Made by a program: the position numbers and the translations under genes. From the NCBI RefSeq assembly GCF_013839425.1, contig NZ_JACDNP010000009.1:1-64000 (forward strand): a stretch of DNA of 64,000 bases, read 5' to 3'. How positions within the stretch are numbered: position 1 is the first letter of the stretch; every line of letters begins with the position of its first letter. Source of the DNA: Halorhabdus salina (GTDB lineage: Archaea > Halobacteriota > Halobacteria > Halobacteriales > Haloarculaceae). The notes under the pieces were generated by a model, which saw only the letters and a list, made by a program, of their open reading frames with translations, had not been told where the DNA came from and ran no database searches. Positions 30,547-50,363 of this stretch are shown one piece after another.

Positions 30547-32604
<2,058 letters not shown>

Positions 32605-32814
32605 AGTATGCCCAATTCAGGCTGGAGGGCTTTTACCGGTTCGCTTGGAGGTTAAACGGTACATGAAACGCACCCTATGGAAATTATCCTGGAGTTTATA
32701 TTAACAAACCGGAAGAGGCGAAGGTGTGTGTTGGTTCACAGAGTGTGGGTTGAAGAAAGGACTCTCCACCTCAACGCCGGAATTACTGAGTGGATTGGAT
32801 TCAAGTTACTAACT

Positions 32815-33729
32815 ATGCAGGATGAGAGTATCCACACTGATGCGGGGAATTTTCTGCGTCGTGTGGATGATAAAGATAGCTTCATACAGCTTTGTAGGGA
32901 GTATTTTGAAATCGCTATTGGCTATCGCAGACCCTCCGATGAAGAGCGAACACAGGCAAGTAAATGGCTAATCAAGGGAGGGTTCTTTGGTGAAGAAGTG
33001 ACACCTGAGAGGATTGTGAAGATTATGAAGTATCCATATTCCTTCAACAGACAGGAACACATTCAGACCATATATCAGTTTGAGTATATTATCTTTCAGA
33101 TTCTCGCTGAGGAAACCACTATTGTAGAGGGGCCGTACCTTCCGATGTTTCGGTACGAGATTCTAAAACAAAAATCGCTCGCGAAAGAATCACGGTATGA
33201 TACCGCTGTTCTTCGCCAATCAGCGTTTCTTGAGACTCTTTTCAAAATGAAGATGGGGAAATGGAAAGATAGTGAGGGGAATTTTCTCAATTGGGAGTTG
33301 TGTGTCGCTTGTGTCTATCGGGGAGAGAATTTGATAACTGAAGACATGAAAGATTCCCTACGGATAATGGCCTCTGTTCGGAACAGGTACGCCCATGATT
33401 GGCGGCAGTATGCTATGAGAAAGGAAGCCGACAAGACGGAAATCAAAGAAGCATTTGTCTGTGGGCTGGGGGTGATCGCAGAAGTCGATTCCAAAGAACT
33501 CTCGCACACATACTCAGATTACACTTCAAAACACGTCTCAAAGCGACTCCCCATAACGTGGGCAGACAGGGAGAAATCAGAAATGACGGGTTCAGCTACA
33601 ACCACGGTCGGGATCACCTGCGATAGCTGTAGTCATGAATTCAAACCGCGTCATGAAGGATGGAAACGCTGTCCAAAATGTGACTCTTCTCACGACTATC
33701 TTGAACAATCCAGTACACCGGACGGTTAG
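32815..33729 (+). CDS. HEPN-motif protein with C-terminal zinc ribbon
   Basis: 304 residues from the ATG at 32815; the frame is open from 32677, but the earlier part looks non-conserved. A helical middle region contains VRNRYAHDW, giving an RxxxxH motif (Arg 189, His 194) of the kind found in HEPN ribonucleases. The C-terminus has a zinc ribbon with Cys 269, 272, 286 and 289. Codon use is AT-rich, unlike flanking core genes, indicating recent transfer. I do not recognise the family; RNA cleavage in defence is an inference from the motif and context. Confidence 0.65.
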   Translation: MQDESIHTDAGNFLRRVDDKDSFIQLCREYFEIAIGYRRPSDEERTQASKWLIKGGFFGEEVTPERIVKIMKYPYSFNRQEHIQTIYQFEYIIFQILAEETTIVEGPYLPMFRYEILKQKSLAKESRYDTAVLRQSAFLETLFKMKMGKWKDSEGNFLNWELCVACVYRGENLITEDMKDSLRIMASVRNRYAHDWRQYAMRKEADKTEIKEAFVCGLGVIAEVDSKELSHTYSDYTSKHVSKRLPITWADREKSEMTGSATTTVGITCDSCSHEFKPRHEGWKRCPKCDSSHDYLEQSSTPDG

Positions 33730-33847
33730 CTCAGGGTATCAGATATTCGCTGATGGGTTTTCCACTCACCAAGGGTAGGCTAAGAATCTACTTCTACATA
33801 CCGGTTGAAGACCGGCGTGACATGTTTGATAAGATGGGATGATACCC

Positions 33848-34426
33848 CTACCGCAGATGCTCAAGAATCTGTAGGATGCGGAATCCAAGCTCACCGTAGT
33901 CTTTCTCCGTCTCAGATGCCTTCTCTCGAAGTTTTTCCATCTTCTCAGTATAGCACTCGTTGATGACCAACTCCATTTCCATCCTCGTCTCTTCCTCAAA
34001 CTCGGATTCCAAGGCGTTCAGTCCGCCCAGCAAATATTCCTCATCAGAATTTCCGGGGACAATCGGACTCCATAGTTGAAACACATAGGAATCAGCGGAG
34101 TCAAAGAGTTCAGTCACGTAGTTCCAGTCTGAATTGAATTTCCGCCAAAGGCGCTCTAAGGAATGTTGATAGTCACTATTGCCGTATTCAGCCCACCTGT
34201 CGGTATCAGGTGTCCCGGAATAATGCAGCCCATTCAGGTGGGTCACAACTTCGCAGGTGTAGACCGCTTGTTCCCCTTCATCTGTATTATCTACCCCTAT
34301 CACGTCAATTTCCGATTGGTCGCCTTCAGCCTGAGTACGCTGATTATACATCACCAACTCGCACTCTTCTATTAGCCTCAGGTACGCTCCAACAAGGAGT
34401 TCGCCAGATTCAGGCTGTTTGGTCAT
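33848..34426 (-). CDS. Unknown protein, possibly restriction-nuclease-like
   Basis: 192 residues, acidic, in AT-rich DNA. A segment reading QSEIDVIGVDN, then VYTCEVVTHL (Asp 41, Glu 59), preceded by a helix with two Glu residues (20-21), resembles the core of PD-(D/E)xK nucleases. The usual Lys is absent at the third position (EVV), so activity is uncertain. A C-terminal charged helix follows. It is divergent from the 34486 gene (59 bases apart) and convergent with the 32815 gene. The function is not recognised. Confidence 0.5.
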   Translation of the reverse strand: MTKQPESGELLVGAYLRLIEECELVMYNQRTQAEGDQSEIDVIGVDNTDEGEQAVYTCEVVTHLNGLHYSGTPDTDRWAEYGNSDYQHSLERLWRKFNSDWNYVTELFDSADSYVFQLWSPIVPGNSDEEYLLGGLNALESEFEEETRMEMELVINECYTEKMEKLREKASETEKDYGELGFRILQILEHLR

Positions 34427-34485
34427 AGTTCACTAACCTGTTTTTCCAACATAAACCACATTACCGTGCCATTTGATTTCAAGCT

Positions 34486-35127
34486 ATGGGAACTTATGAC
34501 GTAATGCAGGTTTGTATGAATGGCCACAAAATCACTCATTCCTATGTTGAAAATCCTGAATTTCGGCAGTCCGCTTGTGATCAATGTGGTGCTGATACTA
34601 TCCACAAATGTCCTGAGTGTGGTGAGCCAATCAGGGGAAAATACCTTGTGGAAGGGGTAGCGTCAGTGGGTGGCCCCGACCCGCCCGAACATTGTCATGA
34701 GTGTGGTGATCCGTATCCCTGGGAAGATGAAGCCGACCAATTCGCGGAGGTTGATGCATCTGTGCTTGATGATGAACTCGCGGAACGGTGTCTATCTGAA
34801 TATGAATCGGGCCATTACCAAAGCGCGGTTAGAACAGCTTTCACCGTGCTTGAAGGTCGGGTTCGGGACAAGGGTGGATTCCCTCAAGGACTCAGCGGAG
34901 CGAAGCTAATGCTTGAAGCGTTCAATGCAGATGAAGGGCCACTGTCGTTTGGTCAAACGGAAGGAGAACAGGATGGGGTGATGTTCCTCTATCGGGGTGC
35001 ATTCCAAGCTCTCCGGAATCCTGTAAGTCACCGATTCGTTGAAGACGTGGATGAAGACTACGCTCGTGACGCCATTCACACGGTGAATCTGCTACTCCGA
35101 CTCCTTGATGAGAACACCTCAGCATAG
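34486..35127 (+). CDS. DUF2321 zinc-ribbon protein fused to HEPN-like Ymh domain
   Basis: 213 residues. The first ~80 match the DUF2321 layout: MGTYDVMQVCMNGHKITHSY, Cys pairs at 31/34, 42/45 and 70/73, and the ending DPYPWED. The C-terminal ~120 residues resemble the TIGR02391 (Ymh) family, with FLYRGAFQALRNPVSH giving RxxxxH at Arg 177 and His 182, a HEPN-type motif. This is the second HEPN-like protein in the same 2.5-kb insert. Codon use is AT-rich. The partner and target are unknown. Confidence 0.7.
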   Translation: MGTYDVMQVCMNGHKITHSYVENPEFRQSACDQCGADTIHKCPECGEPIRGKYLVEGVASVGGPDPPEHCHECGDPYPWEDEADQFAEVDASVLDDELAERCLSEYESGHYQSAVRTAFTVLEGRVRDKGGFPQGLSGAKLMLEAFNADEGPLSFGQTEGEQDGVMFLYRGAFQALRNPVSHRFVEDVDEDYARDAIHTVNLLLRLLDENTSA

Positions 35128-35140
35128 TTCTTCTTCGTCG

Positions 35141-35232
35141 TTTCGCCGTCGGGACGGTCTGGCGAGAGGGGGCCGCCGGTGTCGCTCACAGTACATCCAA
35201 TTCGGGCTGGAAGACTTTTACGGGTTCGCTTG
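35141..35232 (-). repeat. uvrB 5'-end/promoter repeat, copy 2 (orphan)
   Basis: About 88% identical to 32556-32647. The copy keeps the GTG start and codes for about 12 UvrB-like residues (starting [12 protein letters not shown]), then diverges into the insert. It lies next to the native downstream neighbour of the 35283 gene, so it is probably the original uvrB 5' end left behind when the insert arrived with its own replacement. Confidence 0.8.
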
Positions 35233-35282: not shown

Positions 35283-36968
35283 TCAGCTATCGTCATTCTC
35301 GACCCAGATCGGCCCCGCCCACGCCATGCCGTCGTCGGCCTGTTTCAGGCGAACGTAGTAGACATCGGCGTCTGTCCCGCGAGCCTCGTCCCAGGTCATC
35401 CCCGTGATCGGCATCTCGTCGATCCAGGACGCCTCGACGGTGTAAGTATCGAGATCGGCCTCCGGATTGGCCGTCCCCTCGAAGACGCGCCAATCCTCGT
35501 TGTTCTTGACGATCGTCACGCGTTCGATTGGGGCTGTTCCGGCCGCCGTGATAGACACCTGCAGCTCGGCTGTTTCGCCCTCGACGGTGACGGTACTGTC
35601 CGAATCGGCGACATGCGTGTCGTTGATCTCGAATTCGACGCGAATACGATGGGGCTGGCTTGTCCCGTAGACCTGCCGGTCGCGAAGGCTCTCGAAGACC
35701 GTTTCCCGGGTGAGTTCTGACGCATAGATGCCCACGAGCCCGCCGGGGTAGCTCGGTTCGTTCCAGATCCGCCAGATCAGTCCCCAGCCGAGCCCCTTCT
35801 CGCGCCACTCTTTCAGGGAGGGGAGGTGGGCGTCGGCGTGTAACAGCGAGTGGCCTGGCCGGGCGTCGTGGTAGTCCGCCGAGGCCATGAGTCCGACCTG
35901 ATGCCCCATCTCCAGGGCGTCCTGGACGTGGTGGCCCGGGCGCTCGGCCTCGCCATGGCCCATCTCGATGGGGTGGTCGTTGCCCTCCCAGGCCGGGCGT
36001 TCGCTGTTGCCCCACTGGGAGTAGATCTCCACCAGTGGGGCCACTTCGTCGTCGTAGTCAGTGGCGTCGAAATCGAAGGGGTAGGAAGATTCAGCCGTAT
36101 GGTGGGGCGCAGCGACCGCTCGACCCTCGCCCCGGTCGTTGAACTCCCGCAAGCGATCGAACAGTTTCTCGTAGGTGTCGCTCTCCTCGCTGATCGAGTC
36201 GAACAGTTCGGCCTCCTCGATACAGTCGAAGTAGACGTTGACGTGCCCGCCAACGGTGGGCTGTTGGGTCCACTCGTACCCCAGTAAGGGCAGAAATTGG
36301 CCTTCGTCGGTGAACTCCCGGACGATTTCTTTCATTCGTGGGAAATACTGCCGTTCCATCCGGCGGCGCTGGAGCCGTGGCGGGATGAAAAACCCCATCG
36401 TATCGTGATCGGCGTAGGCGACCACGTCCAGATCCATCACGTCACGGCCAAAGCGCAATCCTTGCCCGGGCGACCCACAGCCATCGGAGAACTGCGAGTG
36501 CAGGTGGAGGTCACCCCAGAACAGTCGCCGATCCGGGTCGCCCTCGGTGACGCGCACGGGGTTCGAGACGAACCGTTCCCCGGTCCCGTCATGGGTGAAC
36601 GTGAGGTACTGGATCCCAGGGGTTTCGAATGCAATGCCGTCGACGGTCGTGAGTCCGCCGTTGCGCGCCGGAAACGTAATCTGGTCGGGACGGGTCGCCG
36701 CGTCGTCGGTCGACTCGACCACGAAGGTCCCTCGGAAGTCGTCGACCAGGCGTTCACATTGATCCCAGGCCTGGAGTGTAAGCGTCAGTTGCTCGTCCGT
36801 GGTAGCGTCCGACGGCAATATCGCGTGTGCCTCGGTGAACTCCTGGCGTCGGTTCGCCAGTAGTCGCCGGATCGACGGGCGCTGACGGGCCATCGACCCC
36901 AGGGCCATTTTCGCCTTATAGGCCATTCCCTCGGCCGGGGAGACGTCGTCCCCGTCGTTCGTCGCCAT
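35283..36968 (-). CDS. DUF3604 / PHP-like metal-dependent hydrolase
   Basis: 561 residues. The metal-binding start is LFWGDLHLHSQFSDG (about 150-165), with YADHDTMGFF further on and later HHTAESS, EMGHQVGLMASADYHDA and similar His-rich blocks, as in DUF3604 proteins related to PHP phosphoesterases. The C-terminal ~130 residues form a beta domain. Start ATG 36968 was chosen; a GTG two codons upstream is possible. The physiological substrate is unknown. It lies just upstream of the displaced uvrB 5' end. Confidence 0.82.
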   Translation of the reverse strand: MATNDGDDVSPAEGMAYKAKMALGSMARQRPSIRRLLANRRQEFTEAHAILPSDATTDEQLTLTLQAWDQCERLVDDFRGTFVVESTDDAATRPDQITFPARNGGLTTVDGIAFETPGIQYLTFTHDGTGERFVSNPVRVTEGDPDRRLFWGDLHLHSQFSDGCGSPGQGLRFGRDVMDLDVVAYADHDTMGFFIPPRLQRRRMERQYFPRMKEIVREFTDEGQFLPLLGYEWTQQPTVGGHVNVYFDCIEEAELFDSISEESDTYEKLFDRLREFNDRGEGRAVAAPHHTAESSYPFDFDATDYDDEVAPLVEIYSQWGNSERPAWEGNDHPIEMGHGEAERPGHHVQDALEMGHQVGLMASADYHDARPGHSLLHADAHLPSLKEWREKGLGWGLIWRIWNEPSYPGGLVGIYASELTRETVFESLRDRQVYGTSQPHRIRVEFEINDTHVADSDSTVTVEGETAELQVSITAAGTAPIERVTIVKNNEDWRVFEGTANPEADLDTYTVEASWIDEMPITGMTWDEARGTDADVYYVRLKQADDGMAWAGPIWVENDDS

Positions 36969-37029
36969 ACACACGAGATACGCCGTGGGCGAATAAAACG
37001 AGGGGCTGGTTCACCCACCCGTCGAGCGG

Positions 37030-42286: not shown

Positions 42287-42598
42287 ATGCAGTTCTGCGA
42301 CGAGTGTGGTTCGATGATGCACGCTGACGGCGACGAGATGATCTGTCAGAGCTGTGGCTATCGCGAGCCCAAAGATCAGGAACTGGCCGAGTCGTTCGTC
42401 TCGACGGAAGATCAGAGCGACGACGACGTCATCGAGACCGAGGAAGACGCCAACTTCGAGGGGAAACCCACCGCTGACGACGTGGTTTGTGACGAGTGTG
42501 GCCACGGCGAAGCCTGGTACACGATCAAACAGACCGGTGCGGCGGATGAACCGCCGACGCGGTTTTTCAAGTGCCAGAAACGCAAGAGTGTAGCATAA
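42287..42598 (+). CDS. tfs: Transcription factor S with altered C-terminus
   Basis: 103 residues. TFS (TFIIS/RPB9-like) rescues backtracked RNA polymerase. The N-terminal zinc ribbon (CDEC...CQSC) and the C-terminal ribbon up to FFKC are intact, including the catalytic acidic pair in TGAADEPPTRFF. The canonical ending with the last zinc Cys and the RWRDYN tail is replaced by QKRKSVA, so one zinc ligand is lost. GC drops sharply right after the gene, indicating that a rearrangement hit the 3' end. Confidence 0.85.
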   Translation: MQFCDECGSMMHADGDEMICQSCGYREPKDQELAESFVSTEDQSDDDVIETEEDANFEGKPTADDVVCDECGHGEAWYTIKQTGAADEPPTRFFKCQKRKSVA

Positions 42599-42684: not shown

Positions 42685-43005
42685 TCAGTTGTAGTCTCTC
42701 CACCGATTCCCGCAATCAGTACATTTGAAGAATCGAGTTGGTGGCTCATCAGCAGATCCAGTTTGCTTGATCGTGTACCACGCTTCGCCGTTTCCACAGT
42801 CATCACAGGTTACGCTATCATCCGTTGGCTTCCCCTCGAAGTTTGCGTCTTCCTCAGTCTCGATTAATTCATCACCTGTCTGTTCAGTTGTCGTCACGAA
42901 ATCAGACGCATCGCCCTCTTGCTCCGCCTCGCATCCACAGCTGGCACAGACCATCATCCGGTCTTGCTTTTTCATCATCGAGCCGCATTCGTCGCAAAAT
43001 TGCAT
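42685..43005 (-). CDS. tfs: Transcription factor S, second intact copy
   Basis: 106 residues with both zinc ribbons complete: CDEC/CASC near the N-terminus and CDDC...CTDC with the RWRDYN ending. The catalytic acidic pair lies in TGSADEPPTRFF. Codon use is AT-richer than the neighbouring copy, and the gene faces it tail to tail 86 bases away, so it was probably brought in by transfer. Start ATG 43005. Interleaved inverted repeats (43013-43018 with 43031-43036, and 43017-43022 with 43034-43039) occupy its promoter. Confidence 0.88.
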   Translation of the reverse strand: MQFCDECGSMMKKQDRMMVCASCGCEAEQEGDASDFVTTTEQTGDELIETEEDANFEGKPTDDSVTCDDCGNGEAWYTIKQTGSADEPPTRFFKCTDCGNRWRDYN

Positions 43006-43374
43006 GTTACACATAACCTATACAGTTGGTGGTTATAGGCTTTACATTTGGATCCCCAAGTCCGCGGTAAAACCAGTATCACAACAACCAATGGGATCGC
43101 ATAGACGTTGTGAGACAGGATTCACTCTGTCCTCAGATGAGATCTCTCTCGGACGATTCGTGGATGGTGAGCCTGAAACCGAGGAATCTTTCGACGACCT
43201 CCGACCTGCGATTGCTCGACTGAATGCTCAGATATAGTAATCTCCAGAAGTTTCTACTCACATCTTTCGGCCTTATTCCAAAAAAAACCGACAGACTTCA
43301 CCTGTTTCCATCCGTGGCCTCGACGAAGACTTCCAGATTCTACTATAACACCTCTTGACGACACTCCACTAACC
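43006..43374. other. Low-GC spacer with a short open frame
   Basis: Contains the promoter of the second TFS gene and a 48-codon plus-strand frame (43091-43237) ending SFDDLRPAIARLNAQI, which looks like the tail of a larger lost protein. No intact gene is seen. Confidence 0.3.
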
Positions 43375-49294: not shown

Positions 49295-49783
49295 TTACTC
49301 GTCGAACAGTTTTCTCGCTCGCCGGTAAATCGGCGCGTCGAGCCAGTCTTCTCCAGTGGCAAGTTGCTCGACGTCTGCCAGCGCGTCCTCGCGGTCAAGC
49401 ACGCCGCAATCGAGCAGCGCCCGCAATACGATCGGCGAGATTGCGACCCGGGCCTCAGTGGCGGCCTGCAGTTCGGGGAGCGCCCGTAGGTCGTCGGTCA
49501 GCAGAAAGTCGGCGTCCCGTTTCCGGGCGAATACGACGACGCTCCCTTCGCCCGCATCGATCCGTGCGGATTCGATCGATTCCTCGACCTGGTGGACGGC
49601 AAGGTTATCCTGCCTGTCGAGTACTGCTCGGGCGGCTGTCGCGTGGGTGTCCTCGTATTCGGCCGTCTCTTTGAGCTCTGTGACCACGGTTGCGGTCGTG
49701 TGCACGTCGAACCCCGTGAGAAGGCGGTCCAGCCGGTCGATCGTCGAAAGCGAAACCAGCGCGCTCGTGTCCGCGACGATCAT
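49295..49783 (-). CDS. PIN-domain toxin (VapC-like)
   Basis: 162 residues. The PIN fold opens with IVADTSALVSLSTID (acidic Asp 4), followed by a conserved Glu in VVTELKETAEYED and acidic residues in DAGEGSVVVFARKRDADFLLTDD, the expected RNase metal site. It overlaps the upstream RHH gene by four bases (ATGA), as in VapBC modules. It would cleave RNA when freed from the antitoxin. Confidence 0.85.
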   Translation of the reverse strand: MIVADTSALVSLSTIDRLDRLLTGFDVHTTATVVTELKETAEYEDTHATAARAVLDRQDNLAVHQVEESIESARIDAGEGSVVVFARKRDADFLLTDDLRALPELQAATEARVAISPIVLRALLDCGVLDREDALADVEQLATGEDWLDAPIYRRARKLFDE

Positions 49784-50094
49784 GCCTCGTCGTCAAGTGC
49801 TGCGAGATCGGCGGCCAACTCCTCACCGTCGTCCAGCAACGACTTCGAGGCACGGACTGACTCGGCGTCCTGCCGGCCGACGAAGGCCTGCAAGACGTCG
49901 AAGTCGATTTCGTCGTCCAGATAGAGCTCGACGATTGCCTCACGGAATCGCTCGTCGTCCTCGACGTCGGCCAGATACTCCTGCAGTGCTTCCATCACAA
50001 TATCGGTCCGGTCGGTATGACTCACCTCGGCAGCGACGTCGGCCTTCTCGACCAACTCCTCGGGCAGGCGGAAGTTGACGCGTTTGGTCCCCAT
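49780..50094 (-). CDS. RHH antitoxin partner of the PIN toxin
   Basis: 104 residues. The N-terminal ribbon-helix-helix MGTKRVNFRLPEELVEKADV, then TDRTDIVMEALQEYL, is clear, with an acidic C-terminal tail likely to wrap the PIN protein. The ATG at 50094 was chosen to start with the beta strand. An upstream AT-rich stretch (50100-50130) is the probable promoter, open to autorepression. Confidence 0.85.
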   Translation of the reverse strand: MGTKRVNFRLPEELVEKADVAAEVSHTDRTDIVMEALQEYLADVEDDERFREAIVELYLDDEIDFDVLQAFVGRQDAESVRASKSLLDDGEELAADLAALDDEA

Positions 50095-50144
50095 CGTTCT
50101 GTACATACATTGTCTGTACAATCGAAAAACTCTTTCGGCGATGA

Positions 50145-50363
50145 TCACGCGGGATCGGCTGCTTTCTTTGGCAACTCGAAGACGTCCTCGATTTCAGCGT
50201 CGAACTCGCGGGCGATCCGCCAGGCCAGTTCCAGGGAGGGGTTGTACTCGCCCTTCTCGACGTAGAGGATCGTCTGGCGGGTCACGCCGACGCGGTCTGC
50301 CAATTCGGCCTGTGTGAGGCCAGCGTCTTCGCGACACTTCTTGATCGTCGTCTCGAAGTCCAT
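50145..50363 (-). CDS. XRE-type HTH repressor
   Basis: 72 residues. A complete Cro/cI-type HTH: FETTIKKCREDAGLTQAELA, then DRVGVTRQTILYVEKGEYNP and SLELAWRIAREFD. It is coupled to the membrane gene just upstream (one base gap), a pairing common in archaea and bacteria. The likely binding site is the perfect palindrome at 50819-50842 in the operon promoter. The short C-terminus ELPKKAADPA has no sensing domain, so the membrane partner may act as sensor. Confidence 0.9.
   Translation of the reverse strand: MDFETTIKKCREDAGLTQAELADRVGVTRQTILYVEKGEYNPSLELAWRIAREFDAEIEDVFELPKKAADPA

Follow-up and report, generated by a model that had tools for sequence, protein, structure and literature searches.

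An integrase-less, probably mobile cassette with predicted defence-type genes at the 5′ end of uvrB in Halorhabdus salina

Members of the HEPN family Ymh (PF09509 / TIGR02391) share a conserved active site and are found either solo or fused to other domains in restriction-modification operons (PMC3710099). The fusions that have been listed are with paraMORC, AbiJ-NTD1 and AbiTii domains only (PMC3710099). Full-text searches of the literature returned no relevant functional work on DUF2321 or TIGR02391, nor on uvrB attachment sites. A DUF2321-Ymh fusion is encoded in Halorhabdus salina by one of three genes that lie on alternating strands between uvrB and a gene with a DUF3604 match (Table 1). 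The window referred to here is the whole 64,000-nucleotide stretch of DNA that was analysed; it belongs to a haloarchaeal genome of 2.86 Mb. In an initial annotation, the three genes were considered a candidate new defence or stress module that comprises two HEPN-motif proteins with zinc ribbons and a possible nuclease. Sequence comparisons point to a real foreign cassette with defence-type cargo of predicted activities, but do not establish a new system.

Table 1. Positions in the window of the insert, its genes and the flanking features
Feature	Position	Strand	Basis
uvrB, intact (685 aa)	30547..32604	-	ORF; Pfam UvrB domains
Direct repeat (92 bp), left copy, with codons 1-16 of uvrB and the 43 bp before them	32556..32647	.	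Sequence comparison
Protein 1, 304 aa, possible HEPN protein, orphan	32815..33729	+	ORF, motifs
Protein 2, 192 aa, PD-(D/E)xK-fold nuclease family not represented by a library model	33848..34426	-	ORF, alignment, AlphaFold
Divergent intergenic region, 59 bp, between the starts of proteins 2 and 3	34427..34485	.	Sequence
Protein 3, 213 aa: DUF2321 zinc ribbon (residues 3-83) and Ymh HEPN domain (residues 94-207)	34486..35127	+	Pfam
Direct repeat, right copy, probably the resident 5′ end of uvrB, displaced	35141..35232	.	Sequence comparison
Resident flanking gene, DUF3604 match	35283..36974	-	Pfam

The insert is flanked by a direct repeat of 92 bp (88% identity, E 3e-27), a duplication of the promoter and first 16 codons of uvrB that matches only two places in the genome. 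The copies are spaced 2,585 bp from start to start, which gives an insert of ∼2.6 kb, and they mark its true limits; the initial annotation did not include the repeat. In the congener G001, no gene lies between uvrB and the DUF3604 gene, which are separated by 75 bp, and the site is thus empty. Both an att-like flanking direct repeat and an empty site elsewhere, which are sought in integrative elements, are therefore present. Residues 1-301 of the UvrB encoded in the window are 92-94% identical to congener UvrB. When the coding bases of the repeat are compared with G001, the right copy matches at 47 of 49 positions and the left copy at 45 of 49; the flank past the right copy is continuous with G001, but the flank past the left copy is not. 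The left copy was probably imported with the cassette. The continuity of the flank weighs most in assigning this direction of import, the difference of 2 in 49 coding bases being small.

The genes of the insert have a GC content of 0.45-0.51 and a GC3 of 0.43-0.55, as compared with 0.63 and 0.80-0.84 in the flanking genes. The AT-rich insert with three open reading frames that was noticed at the outset is consequently borne out both by the ORF calls and by composition. The further mark of an integrative element, an integrase of its own, was not found among the three insert genes in the ORF list or with Pfam, and no recognised defence genes directly adjoin the insert. Elsewhere in the window, two adjoining genes for transcription factor S (TFIIS-like), one per strand (42287-42598, +; 42685-43014, -), lie beside an AT-rich stretch at ∼43.5-45.6 kb. 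At 49295-50148 (-), an open reading frame that is PIN-like by eye directly follows a ribbon-helix-helix protein (Pfam RHH_1), and the two are a candidate VapBC-type toxin-antitoxin pair.

A second uvrB locus with an insert is found in a haloarchaeon of another family (G058; L077, 9193-14427). A 5′ fragment of uvrB of ∼110 codons is followed there by a phage-type integrase gene (Pfam E 5e-22), a GmrSD-N/AlbA_2 fusion gene as cargo and a complete uvrB. This integrase-bearing element splits the gene at about codon 110, and haloarchaeal uvrB can thus be split by an element. The idea that uvrB is a frequent hotspot was rejected, as a comparable duplication is present only in G058 among ∼60 uvrB regions. 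Second uvrB matches in three genomes (G033, G194 and G373) are weak or disappear with a longer query, and in G094 two matches on two contigs each run to the contig end and are uninterpretable. The G058 integrase was likewise rejected as a means of marking elements at uvrB, as its closest relative (G019, 49%) is far from the uvrB gene of that genome.

The reading that we favour, with somewhat better than even confidence, is that of a foreign mobile cassette that lacks an integrase, is inserted at the Halorhabdus uvrB 5′ end and carries separate defence-type genes. The cassette (2,585 bp) would have brought its own uvrB promoter and first 16 codons, so that insertion rebuilt uvrB, and the resident 5′ end would have been stranded at the far side as the right repeat. 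Such an insertion would resemble integrase-mediated entry at a gene end, with the absent recombinase presumably acting in trans; the cassette could have arrived either via a trans-acting integrase or via homologous recombination. A passive insertion appears rather unlikely. By this explanation, DNA of a close relative, in which the genes were already upstream of uvrB, recombined via uvrB homology with no site-specific element involved, and the cargo is genomic-island debris. Haloarchaea recombine readily, the insert is without a recombinase, and the untranslated parts of the two repeat copies agree at 36 of 43 positions and are closer to each other than either is to G001, which points to a close relative as the source. 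However, the three open reading frames are intact with unbroken motif residues, and in G058 it is an integrase-bearing element that splits uvrB.

Among the cargo, protein 3 has secure domain assignments (Pfam E 2e-27 for DUF2321 and 4e-26 for Ymh). The Ymh match scores 91.6 bits against a cut-off of 25 in Pfam and 58.2 against 39.45 in NCBIfam, and the motif R177NPVSH182, with a polar residue after the arginine, is inside this confident match. CxxC pairs are present, and the Rx4-6H motif is retained in the relatives inspected. With both scores above the cut-offs, the original description of the fusion as a HEPN protein with R177/H182 and a zinc ribbon holds. Protein 3 was found in 8 of 97 related genomes. 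The DUF2321-Ymh fusion occurs in 3 of 392 haloarchaeal genomes, i.e., that of the window and two others (G344 and G038, 66-67% identity). Most Ymh relatives carry other N-termini, and DUF2321 is also found unaccompanied by Ymh, for instance in phages of staphylococci and lactobacilli. PADLOC gave a modest match of protein 3 to PD-Lambda-3_B (E 8e-6) and no match for proteins 1 and 2. Based on its families, protein 3 might use its zinc ribbon to sense or bind a trigger. Upon infection or stress, its Ymh HEPN domain, probably in dimeric form, would cut RNA, which could result in dormancy or abortive infection.

Protein 2 has no sequence-level match to any library family. Its relatives are present in 9 of 97 related genomes (its own counted), at 29 GTDB loci, including some in Planctomycetota, Bacillota and Gracilibacteria, and on seven plasmids; viral contigs and phages gave no match, and a viral origin was dropped. 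An alignment of 31 sequences displays 25 invariant columns, among them E9, E39, D41, E59, H63 and K96. The AlphaFold model, with the plasmid rows left out of the input alignment, is confident (pLDDT 86.9) and has an alpha-beta-beta-beta-alpha-beta core, which is the PD-(D/E)xK order of elements. The closest structure is AF1548 (Z 10.8, 119 residues, 3.0 Å), followed by VC1899 (Z 9.9) and FokI (Z 9.8), and EndoMS/NucS is also among the fold matches. The weak PD-(D/E)xK-like core first discerned in this protein is thus substantiated by the invariant columns of its relatives and by a restriction-nuclease-like fold. D41 and E59 are invariant, but there is no lysine at the ExK place, two residues after E59; the invariant K96, in the helix that follows, may stand in for the canonical lysine. 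The modelled fold suggests a small metal-dependent nuclease that probably cuts DNA.

The neighbours of protein 2 relatives include phage integrases, GmrSD, a type I methylase and a nucleotidyltransferase, and also plain metabolic genes. At E<=1e-10, 254 PADLOC models were counted in 114 neighbours and 5 in 114 control genes, a contrast that is only rough in that redundant models rather than proteins are counted and the control is the core region upstream of uvrB. Protein 2 relatives tend to lie near defence genes. In Haloarcula argentinensis (L151, 3878-6564), the gene for a relative and the end of a GmrSD gene overlap in an arrangement like a two-gene operon. Another genome (G008) has both a full copy, 88% identical to that of the window, and a relic that matches just the last 24 residues of protein 2 (L097, 8011-8082). 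An unannotated family with an RNDLVH motif, found in ∼35 of 392 haloarchaeal genomes, may represent an undescribed HEPN family. Genes of this family adjoin protein 2 relatives at L022 6960-8516 and L087 7836-9145, in different orientations. A conserved pairing of the two was dropped, as in 30 RNDLVH loci checked from a wider search, protein 2 adjoined in none but the known Natronosalvus plasmid.

Protein 1 stems from an open frame of 350 codons (32677-33729, +) and comprises 304 residues from an ATG at 32815. It displays E140-K144 (Ex3K), R189NRYAH194 and a C-terminal CxxC...CxxC zinc ribbon, and both parts of the HEPN motif pair, Rx4-6H and Ex3[KR], are therefore present. The R189/H194 motif is exactly where initially stated, and CxxC pairs are present, but membership in a HEPN family is only possible. 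A bare R[NHD]xxxH is found in ∼6% of shuffles of protein 1, and likewise of protein 3, so that RxxxxH alone says little for protein 1; the Ex3K and RNRYAH pair at the observed spacing occurs in 2.2% of shuffles. A weak match to the RNDLVH family profile over 29 columns (probability 4%) beats 40 of 40 shuffles. There is no Pfam HEPN match, and a relationship to Ymh was rejected, the Ymh profile score being no better than that of shuffles. No relatives were detected in haloarchaeal genomes, GTDB contigs, viral contigs, plasmids or phages, and order-wide matches are short, at threshold and mostly in the zinc ribbon. A single-sequence structure model is unusable (pLDDT 34). The motifs, together with the one profile match, provide a lead to a possible HEPN protein, perhaps a second zinc-ribbon HEPN RNase.

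That the three genes constitute one new defence or toxin system, with two HEPN RNases and a nuclease acting jointly, is improbable. They do share one compact insert and a similarly low GC, the 59 bp between the starts of proteins 2 and 3 would allow shared control, and a gene with the RNDLVH motif adjoins protein 2 relatives in two other places. On the other hand, the initial annotation had itself named a lack of co-occurrence as grounds for refutation, and the search detected proteins 2 and 3 together only in the genome of the window, i.e., in 0 of the other 96 genomes among the 97 (0.6 expected by chance, a count of low power alone). No relative of protein 1 or 3 was near protein 2 in any locus compared, no protein 2 relative is near the other two full fusions, whose neighbours are unrelated, and proteins 2 and 3 have each already been found singly, with their active sites intact, on other elements. 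The RNDLVH family is not generally associated with protein 2. The alternating strands show that the three genes are not one operon. The three-gene module is accordingly not supported, and what stands of the first description is a secure zinc-ribbon HEPN protein, a secure PD-(D/E)xK-fold protein and a possible zinc-ribbon HEPN protein on a foreign AT-rich insert. The best reading is that the genes are separate cargo on one cassette and presumably act independently, although a lineage-specific trio is conceivable, protein 1 having no relatives to compare. A housekeeping role of proteins 2 and 3 in DNA or RNA repair, with a chance position beside uvrB, is hardly credible. The uvrB neighbourhood and the EndoMS/NucS fold match of protein 2 might suggest such a role, but both proteins are patchily distributed, of foreign composition and missing from every congener sampled.

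The mobile cassette is supported by the repeat, the empty site, the G058 element, the foreign composition, the Ymh match, the fold and neighbours of protein 2 and the lack of co-occurrence. Counting against it are the missing recombinase in the insert, a duplication that differs in length from that in G058, the rarity of such events at uvrB, a direction of import that depends on 2 of 49 coding bases and on the continuity of the flank, and a PADLOC match that is modest for protein 3 and absent for proteins 1 and 2. The cargo would consist of three separately mobile, conflict-type genes, most likely acting singly, with a presumed role in defence. The mobile context of these genes is clear at the locus, which also indicates that uvrB can serve as an insertion site where occupants swap the promoter of a repair gene. 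The protein 2 family, an unmodelled nuclease-fold family of haloarchaea and a few bacteria that recurs close to genes for restriction and integrases, is a candidate currently missed by profile-based defence finders. A broader proposition, which we regard as doubtful, is that the uvrB 5′ end serves small haloarchaeal cassettes as an attachment site and that they supply the gene with a new promoter and start. Moved in trans by G058-like integrases, the cassettes would shuttle changing sets of defence genes for RNases and nucleases, which here would include a PD-(D/E)xK family that lacks a model and possibly a new family of zinc-ribbon HEPN proteins.

Comparison with known systems shows partial likenesses throughout. 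Protein 3 keeps the R177xxxxH182 motif of the Ymh family and matches it over residues 94-207, but is fused to DUF2321 instead of the listed partners. Its weak match to PD-Lambda-3_B is confined to the Ymh region, and the remaining components of PD-Lambda-3 are absent. Protein 2 differs from the PD-(D/E)xK nucleases AF1548, FokI, Card1/Can2 and EndoMS in having K96 instead of the ExK lysine and no sequence-level library match, but shares with them the fold, the order of elements and acidic residues on the expected strands. The G058 element has its own tyrosine integrase, unlike the insert in the window, its cargo is unrelated, and the duplicated part of uvrB is ∼110 codons long as compared with 16. 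In both, however, an insert with a defence-type cargo gene has a complete uvrB on one side and a 5′ fragment of that gene on the other.
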